Both the position numbers and the translations under genes were made by a program. DNA of 64,000 nucleotides, from contig CM027377.1 in NCBI GenBank assembly GCA_015680905.1, positions 57,495,501 through 57,559,500 on the forward strand. Direction: 5' to 3'. Below are positions 27,877 to 61,316 of this stretch, piece after piece. The notes under the pieces were generated by a model. It was not told the origin of the DNA. It saw only the letters and a list, made by a program, of their open reading frames with translations, and searched no databases. Each line of letters starts with the position of its first letter. Position 1 is the stretch's first letter. Origin of the DNA: Coptis chinensis (Eukaryota > Streptophyta > Magnoliopsida > Ranunculales > Ranunculaceae).

Positions 27877-30096
27877 AGAAGCTAATGTTGTTGATATAGT
27901 AGATGATGCTTTGATATGTTCAATGGAGCACAAGGAGTTTTGGGTACTTGATTCCGGCGCATCTTTCCATGCTACCTCACATCGAGAGTTCCTTGAGAAC
28001 TACACCGAAGGTGACCTTGGAACGGTCTTTCTCAGTGATGACCAACCTTATGACATTATCGGCAAGGGTGACGTGCATGTCAAGATGAATGGCTCGTCAT
28101 GGTCATTGAGGGACGTCAGACACGTTCCGGATTTGAGGAAGAATTTGATTTCTGTGGGGCAATTGGCAAGTGAAGGATTTGTTACAATCTTCACCGGTGA
28201 TACTTGGAAGGTTTCGAAGGGTTCAATGGTTGTTGCAAATGGTAAGAAAGATGGTACTCTCTACATGACTGCACATGGTTGTGAGTCGATTGTCGTGGCA
28301 TATGGCAAAGAGGATCTGAATGTTTGGCACCGCAGACTTGGTCACATGAGTGAGAAAGGAATGAAAATCCTTCACTCTTCTGGTAAACTCCCAAAGTTAC
28401 AGCCGACTGAAATTGACTTTTGTGAGAACTATGTATTTGGAAAGCAGAAGCGGGTGAGTTTTCAGAGAATGGGTCAGACTCCGAAAGCTAGAAGGCATGA
28501 GTTGATTCATACAGATGTCTGGGGGCCAGCTAATGTCTCTTCACATGGCGGAAAGTCATAATTTGTGACTTTCATTGATGACCATATTAGGAAGGTGTGA
28601 GTCTATTTCTTAAGACACAAGTCAGAAGTATTTGAAGTGTTCAAGACTTGGAAGACATGGTTGAGAATGAGACAAGCTTGAAAGTAAAGAAGCTGAGATC
28701 CGGCAACGGTGGAGAGTATGAGGATTCAGGTTTTAAGAAGTACTGTGCTGACAATGGCATCAAGATGGAAAAGACTTTGCCAAGGACACCTCAGCAGAAT
28801 GGGGTTGCAGAGCAGATGAATAGAACACTTACAGTGAGAGCTAGGTGTATGCGTACACTAGCAGGCTTCCCCAAGCACTCTGGGCAGAAAGTGTTAGCAC
28901 AGCAGCTTACCTGATCAATAGAAGACCATCAGTACCTTTGGATTTTAAGATTCCCGAGGAAGTGTGGAGCGGGAAGGATGTGAACCTTTCCCATTTGAAG
29001 GTGTTTGGTTGTGTGTCCTATGTCCACATTAGTGACCAAGCTAGAAGCAAGCTTGATGCTAAGTCACTAAAGTGCACCTTCATCGGCTAGGGCGGTGATG
29101 ATTTTGGGTATCATTTTTGGGATGATCAAAATTGGAAAAGCATACGTAGTAGAGATGTTGTGTTTAATGAGAAGGTGATGTACAAGGACAAAGATGAAGC
29201 ACAAACCAAGGAATCGGGTACAGAGTATGTTGAGTTGGAAGACTTCGATGTAAGTCGCAGTATAGTGGGAGCCCCACAGTCAGAGGATGACAGTAGTAGT
29301 GACTTAGAGAATAATGAGGATACTTTACCACCGAGTCCATCTCCACCTCGCGCCCCAAGGAAGACATCCAAGCCACATGTACCGAGTACGAGATATCCGC
29401 CCTCCACTTATGTGAATTTCTTGCTACTTACTAATGGTGGCGAGCCTCAATGCTATGATGAAGCATTGGAAGCGAGTGATGCAAGCAAGTGGGAGCTTTC
29501 TATGCAAAATGAGATGAAGTCCTTCATCTCTAATGGCACGTGGGAGTTAGCCAAACTACCCATGGGCAAGAAGGCTCTAAAGAACAAATGGGTGTTTAGA
29601 GTCAAAGAGGAACATGATGGTTCCCAAAGATACAAAGCGAGGCTAGTAGTCAAAGGTTTTCAGCAGAAAGTAAGAGTTGACTTCACAAAGATATTCTCCC
29701 CAGTGGTGAAACTGAATACTATTTGGTCAATGTTGAGTATTGTTGCAGCGGAAGATTTGTATCTTGAGCAGTTGGATGTTAAAACTGCCTTCCTCCATGG
29801 TGACCTAGTTGAGGAAATTTACATGCAGCAACCGGAGGGTTTCTTCAAGAAGGGTAAAGAGAATATAGTATGCAGGCTCAGAAAGAATTTTTATGGTTTG
29901 AAACAAGCCCCTAGGAAGTGGTACAGGAAGTTTGATAACTTCATGCAAGGAAATGGCTACTATAAGTGCAATGCTGACCATTATTGCTACTTCAAGAGGT
30001 TCGACTCCAGCTATATCATCCTATTACTATATGTTGATGATATGTTAGTAGCGAGTTCTGATATGTCAGAAATTGGGAGATTGAAAGAGAAGTTGG
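27877..30096 (+). pseudogene. Copia1 pol, first part (protease, integrase, RT)
   Basis: Domains in order: protease with WVLDSGASFHAT (27950, catalytic DSG); pre-integrase zinc region with LNVWHRRLGHMSEKGMKIL (28318) and a C-x-Y-C-type segment now CENYVFGKQKRVSF; integrase core with HTDVWGP (28507) and then TPQQNGVAEQMNR (28785, catalytic Glu); RT from 29490 with WVFRVKEEHDG, QLDVKTAFLHGDL, YGLKQAPRKWY and YVDDM (30030, catalytic pair). The gene order PR-INT-RT and the sequence place it near Tnt1/Tork. Stops at about 28559, 28601 and 29088 and shifts near 28640 and 28880 kill it. At 30097 Ath6 interrupts RT; reading resumes at 62827. Confidence 0.93.
30092..30096 (+). repeat. Target site duplication of Ath6, left copy
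   Basis: GTTGG directly before TGATAAATG; the identical GTTGG follows the right LTR at 62822-62826. The Copia1 RT frame continues across if one copy is skipped. Confidence 0.95.
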
Positions 30097-31583
30097 TGAT
30101 AAATGTAAAATGAATAGTCTACCTACGAAATGAACGATGAATTCATATGCGTAAGTAAACTAAAACTAATCTTTTACTATCTCAATTATCAAAGTTTCTA
30201 CTACTCGATTTAATTGCACTAAGTGGAGTAGGAAGTTCGTTCCACTCCTAATTCCCTAGCATGGATTGTCTTCTAAATCTAAGAAATCAGTCTTAAGTCA
30301 ATGAGAGCTTTACGAAATGTTATGCTAACAAGACGCGTTATTTTAAATAACTAGATATAATAAATAACAAGATAAAATATAAACTAAAGTTAATCTACGG
30401 CTACCGGAAATACGATTGTTTGAATCTAGATAAATAAATTAGAGGGGAATTGAATCCACCTCGAATCCAACTTAACGACCTAGCGTAGAATGTTGTATCT
30501 CAATTCTCACGTTCTTACGTGAGAATTTCGAAGTTCTAATCCCTAGTGTTCATGGCATTCCTACCGGATACTAACTAGCATGTGAGGTCGCCCACCCATT
30601 CTCATGGCTTAAACAGACCTTCTAGAGTGGAATAGATTCTACAACCAATTCTATACTAACCACTAAGTTTTCATCAAGGCTTCATCAACCCCTCTAATGG
30701 AGGTTTTAGCCTTGATTCATCAAACTAACATTTCCCATTGAATTTAAACTAAACATAATGTAAGAAATGTTGATTTACTTAATTAAACAATAATGAATCT
30801 AATTTAATGGCTGGAATGAAATAAGAACAAGAATTGAAATTAGATCTAGAATGGAAATGACAAAATCGAAATTAACAAACTAACTATTTTATTTATCTAA
30901 TCAATCAAGAACAATGATTCAAGAATTTAATCTAAAATAGGAATTGAAATGGAACTAACACTTAATTAATTAATAAAACAAGATCTAGAATTCTATATAT
31001 TAATTTAGGTCTAACTAGCTACCATTAACAAAGAGTGAAGCTTTTGTTTTTATACATCCAGATCCAAAAATCGTGCATGGGCTTGGGGCCATGTTTTGGG
31101 CCAGAAAATCAGGCCCAAAACCCAATTCTTTCAGTCCAAAAAGGCCTCTTCAACTGCAGTTCGCTTCAACAGACTTTTCGTCCAATTCTGCTCCTCTGAT
31201 TGGGTCAAGGCTCGGACCATTGGAAAGCTCTTTCCGAGCCGGTCGTTTTGACATAAGGTAGGCCCAATTCCGAGGTTGGAGTCTAAAGATATGGTCTTCG
31301 AAAGTTCTGTTGACTTTGTGCACTGTTTCTGCCTGCGTGGACTTTGACTTTTCATCTTTTAACCAGGCTTCACAAAGGCTTTGTCTTCTTGAATCTTGGC
31401 CTTTAATCACCGAACTCCTTAGTAACCAACCATTGCTCCTTTATCTCATCAAAGTGGCACATTCCTCGCACATAATTGACTTTGAAGCCCGAAATACATA
31501 AAACACGTAATCGGGCCTTTAACTCTTACTTATTACTCACATAATTGGTCTAAAAGTATGACTGCTAAGGGGTTAAAACTACA
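30097..31583 (-). repeat. Array unit 1 (left edge)
   Basis: Carries the intact outer terminus TGATAAATGT. Its U3 variants (GATTGGGTCAAGG at about 31197, CCTTTAATCACC at about 31400) match the single 5' LTR rather than the core units. Confidence 0.95.
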
Positions 31584-33063
31584 ATGTAAAATGAATAGTC
31601 TACCTACGAAATGAACGATGAATTCATATGCGTAAGTAAACTAAAACTAATCTTTTACTATCTCAATTATCAAAGTTTCTACCTCTCGTCGAATAATTGC
31701 ACTAAGTGGAGTAGGAAGTTCGTTCCACTCCTAGTTCCCTAGCATGGATTGTCTTCTAAATCTAAGAAATCAGTCTTAAGTCAATGAGAGCTTTACGAAA
31801 TGTTATGCTAACAAGACGCGTTATTTTAAATAACTAGATATAATAAATAACAAGATAAAATATAAACTAAAGTTAATCTACGAAGCTACGGAAATACGAT
31901 TGTTTGAATCTAGATAAATAAATTAGAGGGGAATTGAATCCACCTCGAATCCAACTTAACGACCTAGCGTAGAATGTTGTATCTCAATTCTCACGTTCTA
32001 CGGGAGAATTTCGAAGTTCTAATCCCTAGTGTTCATGGCATTCCTACCGGATACTAACTAGCATGTGAGGTTGTCCACCCATTCTCATGGCTTAAACACG
32101 ACCTTCTAGAGTGGAATAGATTCTACAACCAATTCTATACTAACCACTAAGTTTTCATCAAGGCTTCATTAACCCTCTAATGGAGGTTTTAGCCTTGATT
32201 CATCAAACTAACATTTCCCATTGAATTTAAACTAAACATAATGTAAGAAATGTTGATTTACTTAATTAAACAATAATGAATCTAATTTAATGGTGGAATG
32301 AAATAAGAACAAGAATTGAAATTAGATCTAGAATGGAAATGACAAAATCGAAATTAACAAACTAACTATTTTATTTATCTAATCAATCAAGAACAATGAT
32401 TCAAGAATTTAATCTAAAATAGGAATTGAAATGGAACTAACACTTAATTAATTAATAAAACTAGATCTAGAATTCTATATATTAATTTAGGTCTAACTAG
32501 CTACCATTAACAAAGAGTGAAGCTTTTGTTTTTATACATCCAGATCCAAAAATCGTGCATGGGCTTGGGGCCATGTTTTGGGCCAGAGAATCAGGCCCAA
32601 AACCCAATTCTTTCAGTCCAAAAAGGCCTCTTCAGCTGCAGTTCGCTTCAACAGACTTTTCGTCCACTTCTGCTCCTCTGATTTTGGCAAATCTTGGACC
32701 ATTGGAAAGCACTTTCCGAGACGGTCGTTTTGACATAAGGTAGGCCCAATTCCGAGATCGGAGTCTACAGATATGGTATTCGGAAGTTCTATTGACTTTG
32801 TGCACTGTTTCTGCCTGCGTGGACTTTGACTTTTCATCTTTTGACCAGGCTTTACAAAGGCTTTGTCTTCTTGAATCTTGGCCTTAAATCACCGAACTCC
32901 TTAGTAACCAACCATTGCTCCTTTATCTCATCAAAGTGGCACATTCCTGCACATAATTGACTTTGAAACCTGAAATACATAAAAACACGCAATCAGTCTT
33001 AACTCTTACTTATTACTCACATAATTGGTCTAAAAGTATGACTGCTAAGGGGTTAAAACTACA
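31584..33063 (-). repeat. Array unit 2
   Basis: Core-type U3 (GATTTTGGCAAATC near 32680; CCTTAAATCACC near 32883). Confidence 0.95.
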
Positions 33064-34541
33064 ATGTAAAATGAATAGTCTAACTACGAAATGAACGATG
33101 AATTCATATGCGTAAGTAAACTAAAACTAATCTTTTACTATCTCAATTATCAAAGTTTCTACTCTCGATGCGAATTGCACTAAGTGGAGTAGGAAGTTCG
33201 TTCCACTCCTAGTTCCCTAGCATGGATTGTCTTCTAAATCTAAGAAATCAGTCTTAAGTCAATGAGAGCTTTACGAAATGTTATGCTAACAAGACGCGTT
33301 ATTTTAAATAACTAGATATAATAAATAACAAGATAAAATATAAACTAAAGTTAATCTAACGGCTACGGAAATACGATTGTTTGAATCTAGATAAATAAAT
33401 TAGAGGGAATTGAATCCACCTCGAATCCAACTTAACGACCCAGTAGAATGTTGTATCTCAATTCTCACGTTCTACTTACCGAGAATTTCGAAGTTCTAAT
33501 CCCTAGTGTTCATGGCATTCCTACGGATACTAACTAGCATGTGAGGTCGCCCACCCATTCTCATGGCTTAAACACCGACCTTCTAGAGTGGAATAGATTC
33601 TACAACCAATTCTATACTAACCACTAAGTTTTCATCGAGGCTTCATCAACCCCTCTAATGGAGGTTTTAGCCTTGATTCATCAAACTAACATTTCCCATT
33701 GAATTTAAACTAAACATAATGTAAGAAATGTTGATTTACTTAATTAAACAATAATGAATCTAATTTAATGGCTGGAATGAAATAAGAACAAGAATTGAAA
33801 TTAGATCTAGAATGGAAATGACAAAATCGAAATTAACAAACTAACTATTTTATTTATCTAATCAATCAAGAACAATGATTCAAGAATTTAATCTAAAACA
33901 GGAATTGAAATGGAACTAACACTTAATTAATTAATAAAACTAGATCTAGAATTCTATATATTAATTTAGGTCTAACTAGCTACCATTAACAAAGAGTGAA
34001 GCTTTTGTTTTTATACATCCAGATCCAAAAATCGTGCATGGGCTTGGGGCCATGTTTTGGGCCAGAGAATCAGGCCCAAAACCCAATTCTTTCAGTCCAA
34101 AAAGGCCTCTTCAGCTGCAGTTTGCTTCAACAGACTTTTCGTCCACTTCTGCTCCTCTGATTTTGTCAAAGCTTAGACCATTGGAAAGCACTTTCCGAGC
34201 CGGTCGTTTTGACATAAGGTAGGCCCAATTCCGAGGTCGGAGTCTAAAGATATGGTATTCGGAAGTTCTATTGACTTTGTGCACTGTTTCTGCCTGCGTG
34301 GACTTTGAGTTTTCATCTTTTGACCAGGCTTTACAAAGGCTTTGTCTTCTTGAATCTTGTCCTTAAATCACCGAACTCCTTAGTAACCAACCATTGCTCC
34401 TTTATCTCATCAAAGTGGCAGATTCCTGCACATAATTGACTTTGAAGCCTGAAATACATAAAAACACGAATCGGTCTTAACTCTTACTTATTACTCACAT
34501 AATTGGTCTAAAAGTATGACTGCTAAGGGGTTAAAACTACA
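33064..34541 (-). repeat. Array unit 3
   Basis: Core-type U3 (GATTTTGTCAAAGC near 34159); GTCCTTAAATC near 34360. The next seam shows TGTACAATGAAT instead of TGTAAAATGAAT. Confidence 0.95.
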
Positions 34542-36023
34542 ATGTACAATGAATAGTCTACCTACGAAATGAACGATGAATTCATATGCGTAAGTAAACT
34601 AAAACTAATCTTTTACTATCTCAATTATCAAAGTTTCTACTCTCGATGCGAATTGCACTAAGTGGAGTAGGAAGTTCGTTCCACTCCTAGTTCCCTAGCA
34701 TGGATTGTCTTCTAAATCTAAGAAATCAGTCTTAAGTCAATGAGAGCTTTACGAAATGTTATGCAAACAAAACGTGTTATTTTAAATAACTAGATATAAT
34801 AAATAACAAGATAAAATATAAACTAAAGTTAATCTACGAAGCTACGGAAATACGATTGTTTGAATCTAGATAAATAAATTAGAGGGGAATTGAATCCACC
34901 TCGAATCTAACTTAACGACCTAGCGTAGAATGTTGTATTTCAATTCTCACGTTCTTACGACGAGAATTTCGAGTTCTAATCCTTAGTGTTCATGGCATTC
35001 CTACCGGATACTAACTAGCATGTGAGGTCGTCCACCCATTCTCATGGCGAAACACGACCTTCTAGAGTGGAATAGATTCTACAACCAATTCTATACTAAC
35101 CACTAAGTTTTCATCGAGGCTTCATCAACCCTCTAATGGAGGTTTTAGCCTTGATTCATCAAACTAACATTTCCCATTGAATTTAAACTAAACATAATGT
35201 AAGAAATGTTGATTTACTTAATTAAACAATAATGAATCTAATTTAATGGTGGAATGAAATAAGAACAAGAATTGAAATTAGATCTAGAATGGAAATGACA
35301 AAATCGAAATTAACAAACTAACTATTTTATTTATCTAATCAATCAAGAACAATGATTCAAGAATTTAATCTAAAAACAGAATTGAAATGGAACTAACACT
35401 TAATTAATTAATAAAACTAGATCTAGAATTCTATATATTAATTTAGGTCTAACTAGCTACCATTAACAAAGAGTGAAGCTTTTGTTTTTATACATCCAGA
35501 TCCAAAAATCGTGCATGGGCTTGGGGCCATGTTTTGGGCCAGAGAATCAGGCCCAAAACCCAATTCTTTCAGTCCAAAAAGGCCTCTTCAGCTGCAGTTT
35601 GCTTCAACAGACTTTTCGTCCACTTCTGCTCCTCTGATTTTGTCAAAGCTTGGACCATTGGAAAGCACTTTCCGAGCCGGTCGTTTTGACATAAGGTAGG
35701 CCCAATTCCGAGATCGGTGTCTAAAGATATGGTATTCGGAAGTTCTATTGACTTTGTGCACTGTTTCTGCCTGCGTGGACTTTGACTTTTCATCTTTTGA
35801 CCAGGCTTTACAAAGGCTTTGTCTTCTTGAATCTTGGCCTTAAATCACCGAACTCCTTAGTAACCAACCATTGCTCCTTTATCTCATCAAAGTGGCACAT
35901 TCCTGCACATAATTGACTTTGAAACCCGAAATACATAAAACACGAATCGGGCCTTTTAACTCTTCTTACTTATTACTCACATAATTGGTCTAAAAGTATG
36001 ACTGCTAAGGGGTTAAAACTACA
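34542..36023 (-). repeat. Array unit 4
   Basis: Core-type U3 (GATTTTGTCAAAGC near 35637). The only unit with AAACAAAACGTG instead of the usual AACAAGACGCG, near 34765. Confidence 0.95.
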
Positions 36024-37505
36024 ATGTAAAATAAATAGTCTAACTACTGAAATGAGCGATGAATTCATATCGTAAGTAAACTAAAACTAATCTTTTACTA
36101 TCTCAATTATCAAAGTTTCTACTCGATTTAATTGCACTAAGTGGAGTAGGAAGTTCGTTCCACTCCTAGTTCCCTAGCATGGATTGTCTTCTAAATCTAA
36201 GAAATCAGTCTTAAGTCAATGAGAGCTTTACTGAAAATGTTATGCTAACAAGACGCGTTATTTTAAATAACTAGATATAATAAATAACAAGATAAAATAT
36301 AAACTAAAGTTAATCTAATGAATCTACGGAAATACGATTGTTTGAATCTAGATAAATAAATTAGAGGGAATTGAATCCACCTCGAATCCAACTTAACGAC
36401 CTAGCGTAGAATGTTGTATCTCAATTCTCACGTTCTTACGACGAGAATTTCGAGTTCTAATCCTTAGTGTTCATGGCATTCCTACCGGATACTAACTAGC
36501 ATGTGAGGTCGCCCACCCATTCTCATGGCTAAAACACGACCTTCTAGAGTGGAATAGATTCTACAACCAATTCTATACTAACCACTAAGTTTTCATCGAG
36601 GCTTCATCAACCCCTCTAATGGAGGTTTTAGCCTTGATTCATCAAACTAACATTTCCCATTGAATTTAAACTAAACATAATGTAAGAAATGTTGATTTAC
36701 TTAATTAAACAATAATGAATCTAATTTAATGGTCGGAATGAAATAAGAACAAGAATTGAAATTAGATCTAGAATGGAAATGACAAAATCGAAATTAACAA
36801 ACTAACTATTTTATTTATCTAATCAATCAAGAACAATGATTCAAGAATTTAATCTAAAACAGGAATTGAAATGGAACTAACACTTAATTAATTAATAAAA
36901 CTAGATCTAGAATTCTATATATTAATTTAGGTCTAACTAGCTACCATTAACAAAGAGTGAAGCTTTTGTTTTTATACATCCAGATCCAAAAATCGTGCAT
37001 GGGCTTGGGGCCATGTTTTGGGCCAGAGAATCAGGCCCAAAACCCAATTCTTTCAGTCCAAAAAGGCCTCTTCAGCTGCAGTTTGCTTCAACAGACTTTT
37101 CGTCCACTTCTGCTCCTCTAATTTTGTCAAAGCTTGGACCATTGGAAAGCACTTTCCGAGCCGGTCGTTTTGACATAAGGTAGGACCAATTCCGAGGTCG
37201 GAGTCTAAAGATATGGTATTCGGAAGTTCTATTGACTTTGTGCACTGTTTCTGCCTGCGTGGACTTTGACTTTTCATCTTTTGACCAGGCTTTACAAAGG
37301 CTTTGTCTTCTTGAATCTTGGCCTTAAATCACCGAACTCCTTAGTAACCAACCATTGCTCCTTTATCTCATCAAAGTGGCACATTCCTCGCACATAATTG
37401 ACTTTGAAACCACGAAATACATAAAACACGTAATCGGCCTTTAACTCTTACTTATTACTCACATAATTGGTCTAAAAGTATGACTGCTAAGGGGTTAAAA
37501 CTACA
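36024..37505 (-). repeat. Array unit 5
   Basis: Core-type U3 (AATTTTGTCAAAGC near 37120); divergent CG-containing sites near 36055 and 36120. Confidence 0.95.
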
Positions 37506-38988
37506 ATGTAAAATGAATAGTCTAACTACTTAAATGAACGATGAATTCATATCGTAAAGTAAACTAAAACTAATCTTTTACTATCTCAATTATCAAAGTT
37601 TCTACTACCGATGATTAATTGCTAAGTGGTTCGAGTAGGAAGTTCGTTCCACTCCTAGTTCCCTAGCATGGATTGTCTTCTAAATCTAAGAAATCAGTCT
37701 TAAGTCAATGAGAGCTTTACGAAATGTTATGCTAACAAGACGCGTTATTTTAAATAACTAGATATAATAAATAACAAGATAAAATATAAACTAAAGTTAA
37801 TCTACGAATCTACGGAAATACGATTGTTTGAATCTAGATAAATAAATTAGAGGGGAATTGAATCCACCTCGAATCCAACTTAACGACCTAGCGTAGAATG
37901 TTGTATCTCAATTCTCACGTTCCTACGACGAGAATTTCGAGTTCTAATCCCTAGTGTTCATGGCATTCCTACCGGATACTAACTAGCATGTGAGGTCGTC
38001 CACCCATTCTCATGGCGAAACACGACCTTCTAGAGTGGAATAGATTCTACAACCAATTCTATACTAACCACTAAGTTTTCATCAAGGCTTCATCAACCCC
38101 TCTAATGGAGGTTTTAGCCTTGATTCATCAAACTAACATTTCCCATTGAATTTAAACTAAACATAATGTAAGAAATGTTGATTTACTTAATTAAACAATA
38201 ATGAATCTAATTTAATGGCTGGAATGAAATAAGAACAAGAATTGAAATTAGATCTAGAATGGAAATGACAAAATCGAAATTAACAAACTAACTATTTTAT
38301 TTATCTAATCAATCAAGAACAATGATTCAAGAATTTAATCTAAAACAGGAATTGAAATGGAACTAACACTTAATTAATTAATAAAACTAGATCTAGAATT
38401 CTATATATTAATTTAGGTCTAACTAGCTACCATTAACAAAGAGTGAAGCTTTTGTTTTTATACATCCAGATCCAAAAATCGTGCATGGGCTTGGGGCCAT
38501 GTTTTGGGCCAGAGAATCAGGCCAAAAACCCAATTTTTTCAGTCCAAAAAGGCCTCTTCAGCTGCAGTTCGCTTCAACAGACTTTTCGTCCACTTGTGCT
38601 CCTCTGATTGGGTCAATGCTTGGACCATTGGAAAGCTCTTTCCGAGCCGGTCGTTTTGACATAAGGTAGGCCCAATTCCGAGGTCGGAGTCTAAAGATAT
38701 GGTATTCGGAAGTTCTCATTGACTTTGTCTGCTTCATTTACTGCGTGGACTTTGACTTTTCATCTTTTGACCAGGCTTTACAAAGGCTTTGTCTTCTTGA
38801 ATCTTGGCCTTAAATCACCGAACTCCTTAGTAACCAACCATTGCTCCTTTATCTCATCAAAGTGGCACATTCCTGCACATAATTGACTTTGAAGCCCGAA
38901 ATACATAAAACACGTAATCGGTCTTAACTTTCGACTTATTACTCACATAATTGGTCTAAAAGTATGACTGCTAAGGGTTAAAACTACA
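37506..38988 (-). repeat. Array unit 6
   Basis: U3 has TTGTGCTCCTCTGATTGGG and GGGTCAATGC at 38594-38620, shared only with unit 9. The right half starts the first higher-order block. Confidence 0.95.
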
Positions 38989-40468
38989 ATGTAAAATGAA
39001 TAGTCTACCTACGAAATGAACGATGAATTCATATGCGTAAGTAAACTAAAACTAATCTTTTACTATCTCAATTATCAAAGTTTCTACTCTCGATGCGAAT
39101 TGCACTAAGTGGAGTAGGAAGTTCGTTCCACTCCTAGTTCCCTAGCATGGATTGTCTTCTAAATCTAAGAAATCAGTCTTAAGTCAATGAGAGCTTTACG
39201 AAATGTTATGCTAACAAGACGCGTTATTTTAAATAACTAGATATAATAAATAACAAGATAAAATATAAACTAAAGTTAATCTACGAAGCTACGGAAATAC
39301 GATTGTTTGAATCTAGATAAATAAATTAGAGGGAATTGAATCCACCTCGAATCCAACTTAACGACCTAAGCGTAGAATGTTGTATCTCAATTCTCACGTT
39401 CTTACGACGAGAATTTCGAGTTCTAATCCCTAGTGTTCATGGCATTCCTACCGGATACTAACTAGCATGTGAGGTCGTCCACCCATTCTCATGGCGAAAC
39501 ACGACCTTCTAGAGTGGAATAGATTCTACAACCAATTCTATACTAACCACTAAGTTTTCATCAAGGCTTCATCAACCCCTCTAATGGAGGTTTTAGCCTT
39601 GATTCATCAAACTAACATTTCCCATTGAATTTAAACTAAACATAATGTAAGAAATGTTGATTTACTTAATTAAACAATAATGAATCTAATTTAATGGCTG
39701 GAATGAAATAAGAACAAGAATTGAAATTAGATCTAGAATGGAAATGACAAAATCGAAATTAACAAACTAACTATTTTATTTATCTAATCAATCAAGAACA
39801 ATGATTCAAGAATTTAATCTAAAACAGGAATTGAAATGGAACTAACACTTAATTAATTAATAAAACTAGATCTAGAATTCTATATATTAATTTAGGTCTA
39901 ACTAGCTACCATTAACAAAGAGTGAAGCTTTTGTTTTTATACATCCAGATACAAAAATCGTGCATGGGCTTGGGGTCATGTTTTGGGCCAGAGAATCAGG
40001 CCCAAAACCCAATTCTTTCAGTCCAAAAAGGCCTCTTCAGCTGCAGTTTGCTTCAACAGACTTTTCGTCCACTTCTGCTCCTCTACTTTTGTCAAAGCTT
40101 GGACCATTGGAAAGCACTTTCCGAGCCGGTCGTTTTGACATAAGGTAGGCCCAATTCCGAGGTCGGAGTCTAAAGATATGGTATTCGGAAGTTCTATTGA
40201 CTTTGTGCACTGTTTCTGCCTGCGTGGACTTTGACTTTTCATCTTTTGACCAGGCTTTACAAAGGCTTTGTCTTCTTGAATCTTGTCCTTAAATCACCGA
40301 ACTCCTTAGTAACCAACCATTGCTCCTTTATCTCATCAAAGTGGCACATTCCTGCACATAATTGACTTTGAAGCCTGAAATACATAAAAACACGTAATCA
40401 GTCTTAACTCTTACTTATTACTCACATAATTGGTCTAAAAGTATGACTGCTAAGGGGTTAAAACTACA
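38989..40468 (-). repeat. Array unit 7
   Basis: U3 has CTCTACTTTTGTC near 40081 and GATACAAAAATCG near 39948, with CAATGATTC near 39799. This combination is repeated in unit 10. Confidence 0.95.
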
Positions 40469-41947
40469 ATGTAAAATGAATAGTCTACCTACGAAATGAA
40501 CGATGAATTCATATGCGTAAGTAAACTAAAACTAATCTTTTACTATCTCAATTATCAAAGTTTCTACTCTCGATGCGAATTGCACTAAGTGGAGTAGGAA
40601 GTTCGTTCCAGTCCTAGTTCCCTAGCATGGATTGTCTTCTAAATCTAAGAAATCAGTCTGAAGTCAATGAGAGCTTTACGAAATGTTATGCTAACAAGAC
40701 GCGTTATTTTAAATAACTAGATATAATAAATAACAAGATAAAATATAAACTAAAGTTAATCTACGAAGCTACGGAAATACGATTGTTTGAATCTAGATAA
40801 ATAAATTAGAGGGGAATTGAATCCACCTCGAATCCAACTTAACGACCTAGCGTAGAATGTTGTATCTCAATTCTCACGTTCTTATGGCGAGAATTTCGAG
40901 TTCTAATCCCTAGTGTTCATGGCATTCCTACCGGATACTAACTAGCATGTGAGGTCGTCCACCCATTCTCATGGCGAAACACGACCTTCTAGAGTGGAAT
41001 AGATTCTACAACCAATTCTATACTAACCACTAAGTTTTCATCAAGGCTTCATTAACCCCTCTAATGGAGGTTTTAGCCTTGATTCATCAAACTAACATTT
41101 CCCATTGAATTTAAACTAAACATAATGTAAGAAATGTTGATTTACTTAATTAAACAATAATGAATCTAATTTAATGGCTGGAATGAAATGGGAACAAGAA
41201 TTGAAATTAGATCTAGAATGGAAATGACAAAATCGAAATTAACAAACTAACTATTTTATTTATCTAATCAATCAAGAACACTGATTCAAGAATTTAATCT
41301 AAAACAGGAATTGAAATGGAACTAACACTTAATTAATTAATAAAACTAGATCTAGAATTCTATATATTAATTTAGGTCTAACTAGCTACCATTAACAAAG
41401 AGTGAAGCTTTTGTTTTATACATCCAGATACAAAAATCGTGCATGGCTTTGTCATCATGTTTTGGGCCGCAGAATCGGCCCAAAACCCAATTCTTTCAGT
41501 CCAAAAAGGCCTCTTCAGCTGCAGTTTGCTTCAACAGACTTTTCGTCCACTTCTGCTCCTCTACTTTTGTCAAAGCTTGGACCATTGGAAAGCACTTTCC
41601 GAGCCGGTCGTTTTGACATAAGGTAGGCCCAATTCCGAGGTCGGAGTCTAAAGATATGGTATTCGGAAGTTCTATTGACTTTGTGCACTGTTTCTGACTG
41701 CGTGGACTTTGACTTTTCATCTTTTGACCAGGCTTTACAAAGGCTTTGTCTTCTTGAATCTTGTCCTTAAATCACCGAACTCCTTAGTAACCAACCATTG
41801 CTCCTTTATCTCATCAAAGTGGCACATTCCTGCACATAATTGACTTTGAAGCCTGAAATACATAAAAACACGTAATCAGTCTTAACTCTTACTTATTACT
41901 CACATAATCGGGTCTAAAAGTATGACTGCTAAGGGGTTAAAACTACA
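40469..41947 (-). repeat. Array unit 8
   Basis: Carries CCAGTCCTAG (40608), GTCTGAAGTC (40657), ATGGGAACAAG (41189) and CTCTACTTTTGTC (41560). The full set recurs only in unit 11. Confidence 0.95.
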
Positions 41948-43422
41948 ATGTAAAATGAATAGTCTACCTACGAAATGAACGATGAATTCATATGCGTAAG
42001 TAAACTAAAACTAATCTTTTACTATCTCAATTATCAAAGTTTCTACTCTCGATGCGAATTGCACTAAGTGGAGTAGGAAGTTCGTTCCAGTCCTAGTTCC
42101 CTAGCATGGATTGTCTTCTAAATCTAAGAAATCAGTCTGAAGTCAATGAGCTTTTCTTAAATGTTATGCTAACAAGACGCGTTATTTTAAATAACTAGAT
42201 ATAATAAATAACAAGATAAAATATAAACTAAAGTTAATCTGAAATGGCTACGGAAATACGATTGTTTGAATCTAGATAAATAAATTAGAGGGAATTGAAT
42301 CCACCTCGAATCCAACTTAACGACCTAGCGTAGAATGTTGTATCTCAATTCTCACGTTCTTATGACGAGAATTTCGAGTTCTAATCCCTAGTGTTCATGG
42401 CATTCCTACTGGGATACTAACTAGCATGTGAGGTCGCCCACCCATTTCTCATGGCGAAACACGACCTTCTAGAGTGGAATAGATTCTACAACCAATTCTA
42501 TACTAACCACTAAGTTTTCATCAAGGCTTCATTAACCCCTCTAATGGAGGTTTTAGCCTTGATTCATCAAACTAACATTTCCCATTGAATTTAAACTAAA
42601 CATAATGTAAGAAATGTTGATTTACTTAATTAAACAATAATGAATCTAATTTAATGTTTGGAATGAAATGAGAACAAGAATTGAAATTAGATCTAGAATG
42701 GAAATGACAAAATCGAAATTAACAAACTAACTATTTTATTTATCTAATCAATCAAGAACACTGATTCAAGAATTTAATCTAAAACAGGAATTGAAATGGA
42801 ACTAACACTTAATTAATTAATAAAACTAGATCTAGAATTCTATATATTAATTTAGGTCTAACTAGCTACCATTAACAAAGAGTGAAGCTTTTGTTTTATA
42901 CATCCAGATCAAAAATCGTGCATGGGCTTGGGGCCATGTTTTGGGCCGAAGAATCGGGCCAAAACCCATTTTTTCGATCAAAAGGCCTCTTCAGCTGCAG
43001 TTCGCTTCAACAGACTTTTCGTCCACTTGTGCTCCTCTGATTGGGTCAATGCTTGGACCATTGGAAAGCTCTTTCCGAGGCGGTCGTTTTGACATAAGGT
43101 AGGCCCAATTCGGGAGGTCGGAGTCTAAAAGATATGGTATTCGGAAGTTCTGTTGACTTTTGACTTTGTGCGCACTGCGTGGACTTTGACTTTTCATCTT
43201 TTGACCCGGGCTTTACAAAGGCTTTGTCTTCTTGAATCTTGGCCTTAAATCACCGAACTCCTTAGTAACCAACCATTGCTCCTTTATCTCATCAAAGTGG
43301 CACATTCTGCACATAATTGACTTTGAAGCCCGAAATACATAAAAACACGTAATCGGTCTTAACTCGACTTATTACTCACATAATTGGTCTAAAAGTATGA
43401 CTGCTAAGGGGTTAAAACTACA
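41948..43422 (-). repeat. Array unit 9 (hybrid)
   Basis: The left half is like unit 12 (CCAGTCC, GTCTGAAGTC, ATGAGAACAAG near 42668). The right half is like unit 6 (TTGTGCTCCTCTGATTGGG near 43027). It is the junction of the two higher-order blocks. Confidence 0.95.
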
Positions 43423-44901
43423 ATGTAAAATGAATAGTCTACCTACCGAAATGAGCGATGAATTCATATCGTAAGTAAACTAAAACTAATCTTTTACTAT
43501 CTCAATTATCAAAGTTTCTACTCTCGATGCGAATTGCACTAAGTGGAGTAGGAAGTTCGTTCCACTCCTAGTTCCCTAGCATGGATTGTCTTCTAAATCT
43601 AAGAAATCAGTCTTAAGTCAATGAGAGCTTTACGAAATGTTATGCTAACAAGACGCGTTATTTTAAATAACTAGATATAATAAATAACAAGATAAAATAT
43701 AAACTAAAGTTAATCTACGAAGCTACGGAAATACGATTGTTTGAATCTAGATAAATAAATTAGAGGGGAATTGAATCCACCTCGAATCCAACTTAACGAC
43801 CTAGCGTAGAATGTTGTATCTCAATTCTCACGTTCTTACGACGAGAATTTCGAGTTCTAATCCCTAGTGTTCATGGCATTCCTACCGGATACTAACTAGC
43901 ATGTGAGGTCGTCCACCCATTCTCATGGCGAAACACGACCTTCTAGAGTGGAATAGATTCTACAACCAATTCTATACTAACCACTAAGTTTTCATCAAGG
44001 CTTCATCAACCCCTCTAATGGAGGTTTTAGCCTTGATTCATCAAACTAACATTTCCCATTGAATTTAAACTAAACATAATGTAAGAAATGTTGATTTACT
44101 TAATTAAACAATAATGAATCTAATTTAATGGCTGGAATGAAATAAGAACAAGAATTGAAATTAGATCTAGAATGGAAATGACAAAATCGAAATTAACAAA
44201 CTAACTATTTTATTTATCTAATCAATCAAGAACAATGATTCAAGAATTTAATCTAAAACAGGAATTGAAATGGAACTAACACTTAATTAATTAATAAAAC
44301 TAGATCTAGAATTCTATATATTAATTTAGGTCTAACTAGCTACCATTAACAAAGAGTGAAGCTTTTGTTTTTATACATCCAGATACAAAAATCGTGCATG
44401 GGCTTGGGGTCATGTTTTGGGCCAGAGAATCAGGCCCAAAACCCAATTCTTTCAGTCCAAAAAGGCCTCTTCAGCTGCAGTTTGCTTCAACAGACTTTTC
44501 GTCCACTTCTGCTCCTCTACTTTTGTCAAAGCTTGGACCATTGGAAAGCACTTTCCGAGCCGGTCGTTTTGACATAAGGTAGGCCCAATTAAGGTCGGAG
44601 TCTAAAGATATGGTATTAGGAAGTTCTATTGACTTTGTGCTTTGTTTTACTTTTGCGTGGACTTTGACTTTTCATCTTTTGACCAGGCTTTACAAAGGCT
44701 TTGTCTTCTTGAATCTTGTCCTTAAATCACCGAACTCCTTAGTAACCAACCATTGCTCCTTTATCTCATCAAAGTGGCACATTCCTGCACATAATTGACT
44801 TTGAAGCCTGAAATACATAAAAACACGTAATCAGTCTTAACTCTTACTTATTACTCACATAATTGGTCTAAAAGTATGACTGCTAAGGGGTTAAAACTAC
44901 A
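43423..44901 (-). repeat. Array unit 10
   Basis: Same variants as unit 7 (CTCTACTTTTGTC near 44515, GATACAAAAATCG near 44384). Confidence 0.95.
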
Positions 44902-46382
44902 ATGTAAAATGAATAGTCTACCTACGAAATGAACGATGAATTCATATGCGTAAGTAAACTAAAACTAATCTTTTACTATCTCAATTATCAAAGTTTCTAC
45001 TCTCGATGCGAATTGCACTAAGTGGAGTAGGAAGTTCGTTCCAGTCCTAGTTCCCTAGCATGGATTGTCTTCTAAATCTAAGAAATCAGTCTGAAGTCAA
45101 TGAGAGCTTTACGAAATGTTATGCTAACAAGACGCGTTATTTTAAATAACTAGATATAATAAATAACAAGATAAAATATAAACTAAAGTTAATCTACGAA
45201 GCTACGGAAATACGATTGTTTGAATCTAGATAAATAAATTAGAGGGGAATTGAATCCACCTCGAATCCAACTTAACGACCTAGCGTAGAATGTTGTATCT
45301 CAATTCTCACGTTCTTATGACGAGAATTTCGAGTTCTAATCCCTAGTGTTCATGGCATTCCTACCGGATACTAACTAGCATGTGAGGTCGTCCACCCATT
45401 CTCATGGCGAAACACGACCTTCTAGAGTGGAATAGATTCTACAACCAATTCTATACTAACCACTAAGTTTTCATCAAGGCTTCATTAACCCCTCTAATGG
45501 AGGTTTTAGCCTTGATTCATCAAACTAACATTTCCCATTGAATTTAAACTAAACATAATGTAAGAAATGTTGATTTACTTAATTAAACAACAATAATGAA
45601 TCTAATTTAATTTTGGAATGAAATGGGAACAAGAATTGAAATTAGATCTAGAATGGAAATGACAAAATCGAAATTAACAAACTAACTATTTTATTTATCT
45701 AATCAATCAAGAACACCGATTCAAGAATTTAATCTAAAAAACAGAATTGAAATGGAACTAACACTTAATTAATTAATAAAACTAGATCTAGAATTCTATA
45801 TATTAATTTAGGTCTAACTAGCTACCATTAACAAAGAGTGAAGCTTTTGTTTTTATACATCCAGATACAAAAATCGTGCATGGGCTTGGGGTCATGTTTT
45901 GGGCGAAGAATCGGGGCCCAAAACCCAATTCTTTTCAATCAAAAAGGCCTCTTCAGCTGCAGTTTGCTTCAACAGACTTTTCGTCCACTTCTGCTCCTCT
46001 ACTTTTGTCAAAGCTTGGACCATTGGAAAGCACTTTCCGAGGCGGGTCGTTTTGACATAAGGTAGGCCCAATTCGAGGTCGGAGTCTAAAGATATGGTAT
46101 TCGGAAGTTCTATTGACTTTGTGCATCAAGTTTCTGCGTGGACTTTGACTTTTCATCTTTTGACCGGGCTTTACAAAGGCTTTGTCTTCTTGAATCTTGT
46201 CCTTAAATCACCGAACTCCTTAGTAACCAACCATTGCTCCTTTATCTCATCAAAGTGGCACATTCCGCACATAATTGACTTTGAAGCCTGAAATACATAA
46301 AAACACGTAATCGGGCCTTAACTCTTACTTATTACTCACATAATTGGTCTAAAAGTATGACTGCTAAGGGGTTAAAACTACA
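44902..46382 (-). repeat. Array unit 11
   Basis: Same variants as unit 8 (CCAGTCCTAG near 45040, ATGGGAACAAG near 45624, CTCTACTTTTGTC near 45998). Confidence 0.95.
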
Positions 46383-47869
46383 ATGTAAAATGAATAGTCT
46401 ACCTACTTTAAATGAACGATGAATTCATATCGTAAGTAAACTAAAACTAATCTTTTACTATCTCAATTATCAAAGTTTCTACTCTCGTCGCGAATTGCAC
46501 TAAGTGGAGTAGGAAGTTCGTTCCAAATCCTAGTTCCCTAGCATGGATTGTCTTCTAAATCTAAGAAATCAGTCTGAAGTCAATGAGAGCTTTACTTAAA
46601 TGTTATGCTAACAAGACGCAAGGCGTTATTTTAAATAACTAGATATAATAAATAACAAGATAAAATATAAACTAAAGTTAATCTACGAAGCTACGAAATA
46701 CGATTGTTTGAATCTAGATAAATAAATTAGAGGGAATTGAATCCACCTCGAATCCAACTTAACGACCTAGCGTAGAATGTTGTATCTCAATTCTCACGTT
46801 CTTATGACGAGAATTTCGAAGTTCTAATCCCTAGTGTTCATGGCATTCCTACCGGATACTAACTAGCATGTGAGGTCGCCCACCCATTCTCATGGCTTAA
46901 ACCGACCTTCTAGAGTGGAATAGATTCTACAACCAATTCTATACTAACCACTAAGTTTTCATCAAGGCTTCATTAACCCCTCTAATGGAGGTTTTAGCCT
47001 TGATTCATCAAACTAACATTTCCCATTGAATTTAAACTAAACATAATGTAAGAAATGTTGATTTACTTAATTAAACAATAATGAATCTAATTTAATGGTC
47101 GGAATGAAATGAGAACAAGAATTGAAATTAGATCTAGAATGGAAATGACAAAATCGAAATTAACAAACTAACTATTTTATTTATCTAATCAATCAAGAAC
47201 ACTGATTCAAGAATTTAATCTAAAACAGGAATTGAAATGGAACTAACACTTAATTAATTAATAAAACTAGATCTAGAATTCTATATATTAATTTAGGTCT
47301 AACTAGCTACCATTAACAAAGAGTGAAGCTTTTGTTTTTATACATCCAGATCCAAAAATCGTGCATGGGCTTGGGGCCATGTTTTGGGCCAGAGAATCAG
47401 GCCCAAAACCCAAATCTTTCAGTCCAAAAAGGCCTCTTCAGCTGCAGTTCGCTTCAACAGACTTTTCGTCCACTTCTGCTCCTCTGATTTTGTCAAAGCT
47501 TGGACCATTGGAAAGCACTTTCCGAGCCGGTCGTTTTGACATAAGGTAGACCCAATTCCGAGATCGGAGTCTAAAGATATGGTATTCGGAAGTTCTATTG
47601 ACTTTGTGCACTGTTTCTGCCTGCGTGGACTTTGACTTTTCATCTTTTGACCAGGCTTTACAAAGGCTTTGTCTTCTTGAATCTTGGACTTAAATCACCG
47701 AACTCCTTAGTAACCAACCATTGCTCCTTTATCTCATCAAAGTGGCACATTCCTGCACATAATTGACTTTGAAGCCTGAAATACATAAAAACACATAATC
47801 AGTCTTAACTCTTACTTATTACTCACATAATTGGTCTAAAAGTATGACTGCTAAGGGGTTAAAACTACA
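46383..47869 (-). repeat. Array unit 12 (hybrid)
   Basis: The left half is like unit 9 (GTCTGAAGTC near 46572, ATGAGAACAAG near 47107, ACTGATTC near 47200). The right half returns to core type (GATTTTGTCAAAGC near 47485). Confidence 0.95.
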
Positions 47870-49370
47870 ATGTAAAATGAATAGTCTACCACCAATGAAA
47901 TGAACGATGAATTCATATGCGTAAGTAAACTAAAACTAATCTTTTACTATCTCAATTATCAAAGTTTCTACTCTCGATGTGAATTGCACTAAGTGGAGTA
48001 GGAAGTTCGTTCCACTCCTAGTTCCCTAGCATGGATTGTCTTCTAAATCTAAGAAATCAGTCTTAAGTCAATGAGAGCTTTACTTAAATGTTATGCTAAC
48101 AAGACGCGTTATTTTAAATAACTAGATATAATAAATAAGAAGATAAAATATAAACTAAAGTTAATCTAACGGCTACGGAAATACGATTGTTTGAATCTAG
48201 ATAAATAAATTAGAGGGAATTGAATCCACCTCGAATCCAACTTAACAACCTAGCGTAGAATGTTGTATCTCAATCATGAAACGTTCTTACGACGAGAATT
48301 TCGAGTTCTAATCCCTAGTGTTCATGGCATTCCTACCGGATACTAACTAGCATGTGAGGTCGTCCACCCATTCTCATGGCGAAACACGACCTTCTAGAGT
48401 GGAATAGATTCTACAACCAATTCTATACTAACCACTAAGTTTTCATCAAGGCTTCATCAACCCCTCTAATGGAGGTTTTAGCCTTGATTCATCAAACTAA
48501 CATTTCCCATTGAATTTAAACTAAACATAATGTAAGAAATGTTGATTTACTTAATTAAACAATAATGAATCTAATTTAATGGTTGGAATGAAATAAGAAC
48601 AAGAATTGAAATTAGATCTAGAATGGAAATGACAAAATCGAAATTAACAAACTAACTATTTTTATTTATCTAATCAATCAAGAACAATGATTCAAGAATT
48701 TAATCTAAAACAGGAATTGAAATGGAACTAACACTTAATTAATTAATAAAACTATATCTAGAATTCTATATATTAATTTAGGTCTAACTAGCTACCATTA
48801 ACAAAGAGTGAAGCTTTTGTTTTTATACATCCAGATCCAAAAATCGTGCATGGGCTTTGGGCCATGTTTTGGGCCAGAGAATCAGGCCCAAAACCCAATT
48901 CTTTCAGTCCAGAAAGGCCTCTTCAACTGCAGTTCGCTTCAATAGACTTTTCGTCGACTTTTGCTCCTCTGATTGGGTCAAGGCTTGGACCATTGGAAAG
49001 TTCTTTCCGAGCCGGTCGTTTTGACATAAGGTAGGCCCAATTCGGAGGTTTGAGTCTAAAGATATGGTCTTCGGAAGTTCTGTTGACTTTGTGCACTGTT
49101 TCTGCCTGCGTGGACTTTGACTTTTCATCTTTTGACCAGGCTTTACAAAGGCTTTGTCTTCTTGAATCTTGGCCTTTAATCACCGAACTCCTTAGTAACC
49201 AACCATTGCTCCTTTATCTCATCAAAGTGGCACATTTCCGCACATAATTGACTTTGAAGCCGAAAATACATAAAACACGTAATCGGCCTTAACTCTTACT
49301 TATTACTCACATAATTGGTCTAAAAGTATGACTGCTAAGGGGTTAAAACTACAGTTTTGGGCTCTTATCA
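47870..49370 (-). repeat. Array unit 13 (right edge, next to polypurine tract)
   Basis: Complete LTR start TGATAAGAGCCC (49370 leftward). U3 variants as in the single 5' LTR (GATTGGGTCAAGG near 48970, CCTTTAATCACC near 49181). This is the copy in the normal 3' LTR position. Confidence 0.95.
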
Positions 49371-49383
49371 ACCACCCCAAACA
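49371..49383 (-). other. Polypurine tract of Ath6
   Basis: Minus strand TGTTTGGGGTGGT directly before the LTR start. It fixes Ath6 as a minus-strand element with the array in its 3' LTR position. Confidence 0.9.
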
Positions 49384-50957
49384 GCATTTTGCTTGTCCTC
49401 AAGCAAATATGAGAAATTAGCATAAGTGACCAAAAATGGAGTTCTATCTACTCGCCTCACTGAGTGCGATTGCATTGACCATATATGCAACAAGGCCTTA
49501 AACCACTAGGAATTCCCTAGTGGACGAGTTATAGCCTCGTGAGAGTTTTCCGATTGAAGGTACTCACAAACTTCATCTATACTACAACGACTAAGAAATA
49601 AAACTATTGTTTTCTCATTCATGTCTCAACTATCTATACCTCTCACTAGCAAATACATATGAATAAACAAATGTAACCCTAAGCTAATATATGCACAATA
49701 ATCAATCATCTAAAATAAACATATAACAATGAGTAATACTATGAAATATAATAGCAGGTCTGTTTTGAAAACTTCGAATAAGCGCCCTTAAGTAGGTCCT
49801 CACATAAATGTCAAGACAAAACCACTCGATTTTTCCACTCAAGTTTCACGCTCCAGCAGCAGGTGGGCACACTTTACCTTATAATCTCAATGACAACAAG
49901 GAAGCCGGAGTCGATCAAACACATCTGCCACTTACTATCACACTAACCTATTCCTAATTGAGCTAGAGGTCTTTATTAGGTGTTGCGGGGATTAGGAGAT
50001 GGTTTAAGAAGGAAGGAAATTGATATTCAAACGGACAAGTCTGAGATAATAGAGTCTTCATATTATGTAACTTAGAGAAAACCTTGTTATTTTCTTTTGC
50101 TTCTATACTTTGTTTTCATCCTTAGCCATATTTTTCTTTTTTTTTTCTTTGGCTTTTGACTCCCTTTATTCTATTTTTGGAGTTTTTATTTATTTCTATT
50201 TTATTTTTTATTTTTTATTTTTTTTTCTTTCTTGGATGGAAACTTCTTTTCTTTTTCTGAAGCAACTACTAATTTTTGTTTACACAGGTTTTTCTCTTTT
50301 TCTTTCTTCCTCATTCTATTCTCAGACTTATTCTAAATTGGGTAGGTTGATTTATACTTTTTTTTTTTAATTTTGTTTTTGTTTTTGTAACAGGGTAAAG
50401 GAATTGTGGTTTATGGAAGGCTAAAGAAAGGCTCAGAGGGGCGACTATCGGAAAATAATTCATAGGTTTGAATTTCTGGCTATATCGATCCAAAGAGGAC
50501 CTAAATTCTCGCTTAGGATATGGCATAGTGATCAAGCAAGTGGACGTGTGATTTCTCTATCCGGATTTTACTTCTCCCTTGTGTCATTTCTCAAATGTTT
50601 TGCTCATATAAGGCTTTAGGCTATATTCTCACAGGATTTGTAGAATAAGTACTCTAGCCTAGATTTCAGAAACTTACTACTAACAATCATAGATAATCAT
50701 GTAATATATTTATAGATAAATGCAAAGATTATTACCTACATATTAACCTAAGTTTCTAACAATTATTCTGATGCAAAAGCTATGTGAGACTTCTAAATTG
50801 TTAAGAGCATAGAGAAAGAAAACAATACCAATATTCCTAAGTGTATAGCATACTTTTTTATTTATATTTTTGAATTTTTGAAATTTTAACTAGAAAACAA
50901 GTGCATATTATACAAATCTATATCCTAACAGATGTCTTAATTACACGTGTTTCTATG
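49384..50957 (-). mobile_element. Ath6 3' non-coding region
   Basis: Collinear with Ath5 18770-20300: CAACAAGGCCTTAAACC near 49488, TCTATACTACAACGACTAAG near 49579, a T-rich segment at 50130-50240, and ATCGATCCAAAGAGGACC near 50484. No gene recognised. The 86-codon frame at 50110-50370 is low-complexity Phe. Confidence 0.72.
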
Positions 50958-57001: not shown

Positions 57002-57029
57002 AAGCAGGTTAGTTAAAGGCCTAGCTATT

Positions 57030-61303: not shown

Positions 61304-61316
61304 GGCAGCGGCGCCA
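61304..61316 (-). other. Primer binding site of Ath6
   Basis: Minus strand TGGCGCCGCTGCC, two bases from the LTR end. It matches the tRNA-Asp complement with one change in the first 13 bases. Confidence 0.88.

Follow-up and report, generated by a model that had tools for sequence, protein, structure and literature searches.

The beginnings of a satellite are hard to read once its founder has been lost. An array of LTRs in Coptis chinensis, still attached to a retrotransposon, raises the question whether such a beginning can be seen at a single locus, and by which steps it was reached. In the window, by which the whole stretch of 64,000 nucleotides analysed is meant, 13 head-to-tail LTR units, U01 to U13, occupy the 3' LTR position of one element (30097-49370, minus strand). 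The reading preferred here is that of one insertion, one founding junction and growth by unequal exchange, to which a probability of about 0.75 is assigned.

Identical 5-bp TSDs, GTTGG, were read directly at 30092-30096 and 62822-62826. Since they enclose both the array and the element, the whole 32.7 kb is regarded as one insertion, the host of which is a copia element. A single internal region is present between the array and the 5' LTR. This single and complete LTR of 1503 bp, used as the reference S, is located at 61319-62821 on the minus strand. It is followed after 2 nt by a primer-binding-like site, TGGCGCCGCTGCCATC (61301-61316, minus strand), which we take to resemble the 3' end of tRNA-Asp. 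At the other end of the internal region, a purine-rich tract, TTTGGGGTGGT in minus-strand letters, adjoins the array at 49371-49385, and its role as PPT is suggested by position and composition; PBS and PPT were both judged by eye. On the same strand, an aspartyl protease-like piece (PF13650, 58396-58734; 22 bits versus a cut-off of 24.3), pieces of RNase H (PF17919/PF17917) and reverse transcriptase (PF00078) at 56687-57436, and the integrase core (PF00665) with integrase zinc-binding pieces in a broken frame at 55584-56379 (zinc-binding 25.4 versus a cut-off of 25.5) were identified. The order PR-RT-RH-INT between LTRs, together with PBS, PPT and 5-bp TSD, is that of a Ty3/gypsy element, with the protease and zinc-binding pieces remaining below cut-off. 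This order, the minus-strand primer-binding-like site by 61319 and the purine tract by 49371 place the array on the 3' LTR side.

The spacing from S to U13 of 13,449 bp falls within the 13,225-13,492 bp that delimit the longest class common among ordinary copies. This class consists of 12 neighbouring perfect matches among the matches listed; among these matches, other LTR-spacing classes lie near 10.9-11.1 and 8.2-8.4 kb. The name Ath6, given to the element in the first-pass annotation, can mean at most Athila-like, as the assembly of 935.6 Mb is far larger than the genome of Arabidopsis thaliana. A scan of 18 of the 36 interior minus-strand pieces of at least 55 amino acids gave no Athila ORF-1 (PF03078); a passage in PMC6317226 gives this ORF as present in only 16% of Athila elements. 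Protein searches yielded a broad range of plant retroelement relatives among the 120 matches listed for each. Rfam at gathering scores gave no match in 30000-62900, and ARAGORN with the bacterial code gave no tRNA within the window.

The 13 direct copies follow each other with a spacing of 1474-1488 bp over 19.3 kb. U01 (30097-31583), the outer edge unit, has an intact outer end (TGATAA on the plus strand) beside the TSD, and U13 (47870-49370), the inner edge unit, has an intact inner end (TTATCA on the plus strand) beside the purine tract; both units are on the minus strand. Between neighbouring units, the same junction, AAAACTACA joined directly to ATGTA, was identified at 12 of 12 seams, which are its 12 occurrences in the window. 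The first seam is located at 31575-31588 (plus strand), and the remaining 11 start at 33055, 34533, 36015, 37497, 38980, 40460, 41939, 43414, 44893, 46374 and 47861. Compared to the intact ends, every seam lacks 23 bp, 17 from one LTR end and 6 from the other, and has a microhomology of at most 1 bp. Counting substitutions, the units are 94.2-99.3% alike, and their identity to the element's own 5' LTR is 95.6-98.2%. Because all 12 seams are identical and have the same trimmed ends, the array is considered to be founded by one joining event.

The first-pass annotation had proposed 13 head-to-tail LTR copies at the 3' LTR position of one insertion with one LTR on its 5' side. The copies were borne out by spacing, seams and element orientation, and the one insertion by the matching TSDs and the single internal region; the 5' LTR was also found as proposed, beyond the interval originally annotated. 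The unit length of 1475-1487 bp that it had given for each copy applies to U01-U12, but not to U13, which has 1501 bp because the 17-bp inner end is retained.

When the assembly of 935.6 Mb was searched with a seam 30-mer and up to 3 mismatches, 12 places were found, all in the array, ten of them exact and two with one mismatch, while the reversed-pattern control was found at none. The family's LTR ends, in contrast, are present by the thousands. Chance is excluded by the likeness of the units together with a seam 30-mer present 12 times at one locus and absent from its control. A 14-mer of the seam was found at 28 genomic places outside the array, with 14 for the reversed-pattern control; these 28 were rejected as seams, 26 having no LTR similarity and two being similar only about 700 bp or more away. 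Four additional matches, to a looser pattern, resemble chance hits or lone LTR ends, and arrays whose LTR ends have diverged may exist elsewhere in the genome. Another direct LTR-LTR junction was identified at C3:83058610. It is probably formed by two abutting elements, since the joined LTRs are 92.6% alike, compared to 97.3% for the left element's own pair; it may also be a dimer, for which 1766 bp of internal regions that are 96.4% alike would speak.

Copy number and order of units are taken from a single assembly, which bears signs of systematic base-calling error. The same odd differences turn up again in LTR pairs that are independent of each other, and much of the apparent divergence of the units therefore looks like such error. 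Twenty of these differences are identical in at least two independent insertions, the array being treated as a single one; homopolymer length alone is concerned in 11 of them, and eight are in CG/CHG context. For comparison, 10 dispersed LTR pairs were used, in which one LTR each is 4.5-8.6% different from the element's 5' LTR. These pairs contain 127 distinct indel or multi-base differences, of which 12 are also present in the array. Of their 50 complex events, 46 fall in CG/CHG context, a raw count with no chance expectation alongside. CG/CHG-centred complex differences were thus rejected as specific for the array and, being shared by the dispersed pairs, were masked as probable error, although they may derive from a real CG-targeted mutation process. 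In a 168-bp copia LTR pair, no indels were found, only single-base changes and one two-base difference. Context-specific base-calling error has probably raised the LTR divergence seen in the Coptis chinensis assembly.

At the clean sites, a block of three units was found twice by its match at a lag of three units. The first copy (38530-42935) consists of the right part of U06, U07, U08 and the left part of U09, and the second (42970-47370) of the right part of U09, U10, U11 and the left part of U12, with approximate boundaries set by hand from unit starts and alignment sites. The longest run of lag-3 matches was 84 when 25 strict variable sites per unit were used, a length reached in none of 2000 unit permutations; with 52 sites it was 72, reached in 9 of 1000. 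U07 equals U10 at all 867 clean columns, and four differences appear over 974 columns when CG/CHG sites are included. U08 and U11 have six differences in 867 columns, and within the block U06 departs from U09 at the four adjacent sites 1216-1219. By this pattern, U09 is best described as the hybrid crossover unit of a three-unit duplication.

A further pattern distinguishes the edge units from the inner ones. At sites 1100, 1101, 1107, 1127 and 1302, S, U01 and U13 have common states, all five of which are changed in nine of the 11 inner units; no unit but the two at the edges retains every 5' LTR state in this block of sites. Among 20 dispersed LTRs, the S state at 1100, 1101, 1107 and 1127 is present in 19, 20, 18 and 19, respectively, and the inner-unit state at any of these four sites in none; the S state also occupies all five sites in a more distant LTR within the window. 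On the basis of these 20 LTRs, a tiny sample compared to the family, it was rejected that the inner-unit block had been imported from elsewhere in the family. Both the lag-3 and the edge tests were devised after the pattern was seen. At strict sites, neighbouring units are more alike than expected by chance (reached in 22 of 2000 permutations); when the inner units are taken by themselves, distance dependence does not reach significance (Mantel r 0.17, p 0.16). A tree of whole units, nearly a star with one of 11 inner branches well supported, is uninformative because of recombination and errors. Taken from the sequence pattern, the duplicated three-unit block, the crossover unit U09 and the different states of edge and inner units support a satellite-like growth of the array by unequal exchange.

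Homogenisation by this growth is partial, since the inner units still differ by 1.21% among themselves at clean sites. This value nearly equals their divergence of 1.37% from the 5' LTR, implying that the array began early in the life of the insertion; the three-unit exchange is later than this start. The array had been described as a satellite at its birth with the founder still attached. The attached founder, the derivation from an LTR, the single-origin seam and the unequal exchange remain from this description, but the words "at its birth" are not supported, given the early start. The 23 bp missing from the seam and the error-like share of the divergence had not been noted there.

From these data, the following course of events is suggested. 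A full-length Athila-like Ty3/gypsy element inserted once into the copia element. Around this time or shortly thereafter, two LTR ends were presumably joined, 6 and 17 bp being lost, which left an LTR-LTR dimer in the 3' LTR position. This junction would most likely stem from cDNA termini that were linked by end joining, as happens in a 2-LTR circle or in an end-joined cDNA dimer, after which a second internal region would have been lost. The tandem LTRs would then have permitted mispairing of sister chromatids or homologues and unequal exchange up to 13 units. Here the exchange itself is shown by the sequence pattern, whereas its partners are only presumed. No function was found for the unit, whose growth is most likely a consequence of what tandem homology allows. 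Taken alone, the cDNA origin of the founding junction is considered slightly better than an even bet. The polarity of the seam, from outer U3 end to outer U5 end, and the trimming by 6 and 17 bp fit a 2-LTR junction. However, a chromosomal duplication yields the same seam, so that the seam alone does not separate extrachromosomal end joining from illegitimate duplication in the chromosome, and the cDNA route needs the extra step of losing the second internal region, for which no intermediate was found.

The strongest alternative departs from this course only at the outset. Here, an error of replication or repair would have copied nearly the whole 3' LTR in place, purely in the chromosome and with no extrachromosomal DNA, and unequal exchange would have followed. 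This explanation takes the fewest steps and leaves no second internal region to be lost, and maize CRM1TR and CRM4TR arrays have been ascribed to illegitimate recombination in the pertinent part of PMC3648361. Nevertheless, neither breakpoint is more than 17 bp away from an LTR end; with random uniform endpoints in the LTR, trimming by 23 bp or less is expected in about 2.8e-4 of duplications, in a model that ignores fragile LTR-end sequence. The purely chromosomal first step is a real possibility, with the odds against it. It is unlikely that a small LTR circle was copied by a rolling-circle mechanism and that the resulting multimer entered the 3' LTR through a single recombination step. While identical seams from one event and the divergence values of 1.21% and 1.37%, as from a single early burst, would agree with this, the three-unit block and the edge-inner difference require unequal exchange anyway, and the likeness of neighbours at strict sites, which is not significant among inner units at all sites, also argues against it. 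Expansion of one 3' LTR by misassembly of noisy reads is improbable: the 20 recurring error-like differences would fit, but not one novel seam shorter by 23 bp found 12 times with both outer ends intact, nor the units' own clean variants, the edge states and the three-unit block. That a family satellite existing elsewhere was captured is hardly credible, because, even though LTR-like satellites exist in plants according to a section of PMC3648361, the array lies inside the TSDs, its edge units match the states of this element's own 5' LTR and the seam occurs at no other place in the assembly.

With one insertion, one founding junction and unequal exchange as the preferred course, the array appears to work like an incipient satellite. 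It consists of head-to-tail monomers with one junction type, homologous to the LTR of a resident family. It is not yet a satellite family, because there is one array of 19.3 kb in place of long or many arrays, and no sign of spread as a genomic satellite was found in the assembly. Since founder, seam, edge units and exchange block share a locus of 33 kb, models of the first satellite steps become testable on alleles of one site, with the unduplicated sister 5' LTR in the same locus serving as outgroup. Tentatively, and at somewhat less than even odds, end-joined cDNA ends may seed a satellite directly, the seam being a 2-LTR-type fossil that entered the chromosome with the element, while the later steps can still be read with the founder in place.

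LTR-derived satellites are already known, and the present array, made of LTRs only and lying within its founder, is a variant of these. For maize, the tandem repeats CRM1TR and CRM4TR were described from centromeric retrotransposons, with 187 and 39 full-length monomers extracted, respectively. Like the present array, they are derived from Ty3/gypsy LTRs with one characteristic junction, and the CRM4TR monomers of 1369-1391 nt are listed as a likeness to the present units; their growth was ascribed to homology-dependent exchange or gene conversion. However, their monomers consist of an LTR part and UTR with a UTR-LTR junction, whereas here the LTR alone is repeated and founder and TSDs are present (all from the relevant part of PMC3648361). 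The Sobo satellite of wild potato also resembles a gypsy LTR and is located at one chromosome site, but it has a monomer of 4.7 kb over about 360 kb, and its description in the same part of that paper names no founder insertion (PMC3648361). In tandem LTR-retrotransposons (LTR-int-LTR-int-LTR), extra LTRs are contained in one TSD-bounded insertion, as found here, and Athila is enriched among them in Arabidopsis, almond and cotton. Yet these alternate LTRs with internal regions, in contrast to the 13 directly joined LTRs and one internal region of the present element (PMC11899658, in the portion on these elements). The Lathyrus satellites from Ogre tandem subrepeats are likewise an expansion from within an LTR retrotransposon, with short 3'UTR subrepeats as their source instead of an LTR, according to an excerpt of PMC7004042. 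For plant 2-LTR circles, LTR ends joined with small indels were attributed to non-homologous end joining in the corresponding passage of PMC9324142; these circles are extrachromosomal and derive from an intact linear copy, and by analogy they may be tied to the seam found here.

At 30097-49370, an array of 13 LTR units in head-to-tail arrangement was identified (U01 at the outer edge to U13 at the inner edge), with a spacing of 1474-1488 bp, and a lone LTR of the same sequence, designated S and 1503 bp long, is located at 61319-62821. The window reads GTTGG in the 5 bp preceding the array and again in the 5 bp following S, so that array, internal region and S represent one insertion of 32.7 kb. 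This insertion interrupts a copia element, with a copia reverse transcriptase (PF07727) encoded in its left flank and a copia-like direct repeat at 26228-26395 and 63833-64000 (93.5% identity, the second copy being clipped by the window end). Between the LTRs, the minus strand contains protease-like, reverse transcriptase, RNase H and integrase pieces in that order, every frame being short and broken. Since a primer-binding-like site lies just after S and a purine tract just before the array, in agreement with the domain order, the array occupies the position of the 3' LTR. From the unit coordinates, S and U13 are spaced by 13,449 bp, which falls within the longest common spacing class seen genome-wide between the starts of adjacent LTRs (13,225-13,492 bp; at least 12 pairs among the matches listed, the 12 having been selected from these by hand); further classes near 10.9-11.1 and 8.2-8.4 kb occur among the matches listed. 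The locus therefore resembles a normal full-length element to which 12 LTRs have been added.

Elsewhere in the window, a related LTR at 17357-18180 carries an internal tandem duplication of 415 bp, whose copies are 94% identical and differ mostly by single bases. On the minus strand at 22333-24390, two long open frames of 429 and 256 amino acids were found, both with zero Pfam matches at E 0.001; the 429-aa frame is similar to plant retroelement proteins, some of them with an aspartyl protease domain. Judged by its retroelements, the DNA would be that of a plant.

The intact LTR ends, present at the outer end of U01, at the inner end of U13 and in S, read TGATAAATGTA... and ...AAAACTACAGTTTTGGGCTCTTATCA on the plus strand. 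The joint between neighbouring units, the seam, is AAAACTACA followed directly by ATGTA in 12 of 12 cases, each being short of 17 bp from one LTR end and 6 bp from the other, with a microhomology of at most 1 bp. A 30-mer crossing the seam matched 12 places in the 935.6 Mb assembly at up to 3 mismatches, 12 of 12 in the array (control 0). From the sequence, all 12 seams descend from one event, and the locus consists of one insertion with one seam. With the same mismatch limit, 26-mers of the U5-side and U3-side LTR ends matched 2,612 and 28,379 places in the assembly, respectively (controls 0). By these counts, the LTR belongs to a very large family, in which the U5 end is probably much more variable than the U3 end.

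Under uniform random duplication endpoints in the LTR, a loss of 23 bp or less was calculated for about 2.8e-4 of cases, so that a joining of LTR ends as such is favoured. For plant LTR-LTR circles, the available part of one report describes small indels, ascribed to end joining (PMC9324142). We infer, with a probability of roughly 0.55, that the first two LTRs were joined by cDNA end joining. A chromosomal duplication, to which the calculation on random endpoints applies, is a less likely alternative for their origin. The LTR start (minus strand, 62790-62821) contains a small inverted repeat, AAAAC-TGTA-GTTTT, and the seam breakpoint coincides with the edge of its loop, which may be chance.

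A direct junction of two same-family LTRs was also found at C3:83058610-83058656. Here, one LTR end minus 3 bp is followed by ATT and the intact U5-side end; the joined LTRs are 92.6% alike, and 1766 bp of internal region are 96.4% alike. This junction probably represents two abutting elements, a dimer being the less likely reading. The genome-wide searches for LTR-LTR junctions covered those with exact anchor sequences.

Between the units, 51 of 65 distinct complex events lie within 1 bp of CG/CHG (18.2 expected), as do 23 of 44 indels (8.6 expected) and 23 of 70 single substitutions (11.1 expected). Inside 10 pairs of dispersed same-family LTRs, 46 of 50 complex events, by raw count, are in CG/CHG context. 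With the array counted as one insertion, 20 identical odd differences are common to at least two independent insertions: 11 of pure homopolymer length, 8 in CG/CHG context and 1 other. Because the same odd states recur independently, mutation is a poor explanation, and the likely cause lies in systematic base-calling error at methylated DNA and homopolymers. Such error would make insertions in this assembly look older than they are when dated from their LTRs. The analysis was therefore based on a clean set of 867 alignment columns not near gaps or CG/CHG, and on a strict set of 840 with clustered differences also removed, which reduced the variable ungapped columns from 183 to 52 and 25, respectively.

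Along the array, U06-U07-U08-U09 matches U09-U10-U11-U12. In a test which, like the edge comparison below, was devised after the pattern was seen and in one assembly, the longest run of matching variable sites at a lag of three units was 72 at 52 sites per unit (reached in 9 of 1000 permutations). At the strict sites, of which there are 25 per unit, it was 84 (0 of 2000). Lags of 1, 2 and 4 units gave runs that 547, 222 and 222 of 2000 permutations reached. U07 and U10 differ at 0/867 columns (4/974 once CG/CHG sites are included), and U08 and U11 at 0/840 strict and 6/867 clean columns. U09 equals U12 as far as site 987 and, from about site 1024 onward, U06 save for four adjacent sites, 1216-1219, as would be expected of a crossover unit. 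With all differences used, whole-unit similarity declines with distance: Mantel r is 0.32 overall (p 0.012) and 0.17 among the inner units by themselves (p 0.16). An unequal exchange with a three-unit shift is apparent from the unit sequences. The array would have grown by sister or homologue exchange, growth by rolling circle being disfavoured. No function was found for the LTR unit, and nothing is proposed beyond growth by homology.

At sites 1100, 1101, 1107, 1127 and 1302, one state is common to S, U01 and U13, and another is present at all five in 9 of the 11 inner units; U06 and U09 agree with S at 1100, 1101 and 1127, carry a third letter at 1107 and side with the other inner units at 1302. 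In 20 dispersed LTRs, the S state was identified in 19, 20, 18 and 19 at the first four sites, and the inner state in none; at 1302, a letter is present in 2 of 20, both matching S. S is likewise matched at 5/5 sites by a more distant LTR of the window. The dispersed LTRs favour the inner-unit state at site 1194 (18 of 20) and are divided at 1207, so that no older state is indicated at these two. Given exactly two old-state units, the chance of their falling at both ends of 13 is 1 in 78. Both array edges retain older states.

At clean sites, the inner units diverge by 1.21% between one another versus 1.37% to S, and in the strict set by 0.52% versus 0.55%; for all 13 units the order flips (1.40% versus 1.29%). 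As judged from the inner-unit divergences, the array would have begun early in the life of the insertion. Between S and either edge unit, U01 or U13, 7/867 columns differ, and between the two edge units 10/867. Assuming 7e-9 substitutions per site per year, 7/867 corresponds roughly to 0.6 million years, as an order of magnitude only.

An LTR-only array in a complete founder bounded by a target site duplication was not found in the accessible portions of the open-licence PubMed Central literature, and absence in print is claimed for these searches only. Retrotransposon-derived tandem repeats are already established, as described in the available parts of the reports on CRM1TR/CRM4TR and Sobo (PMC3648361), on satellites derived from Ogre elements (PMC7004042) and on tandem LTR-retrotransposons (PMC11899658), among which Athila is enriched in three genomes. 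The present locus differs from all of these, as far as those parts describe them, in being an LTR-only array inside its complete founder bounded by a target site duplication.
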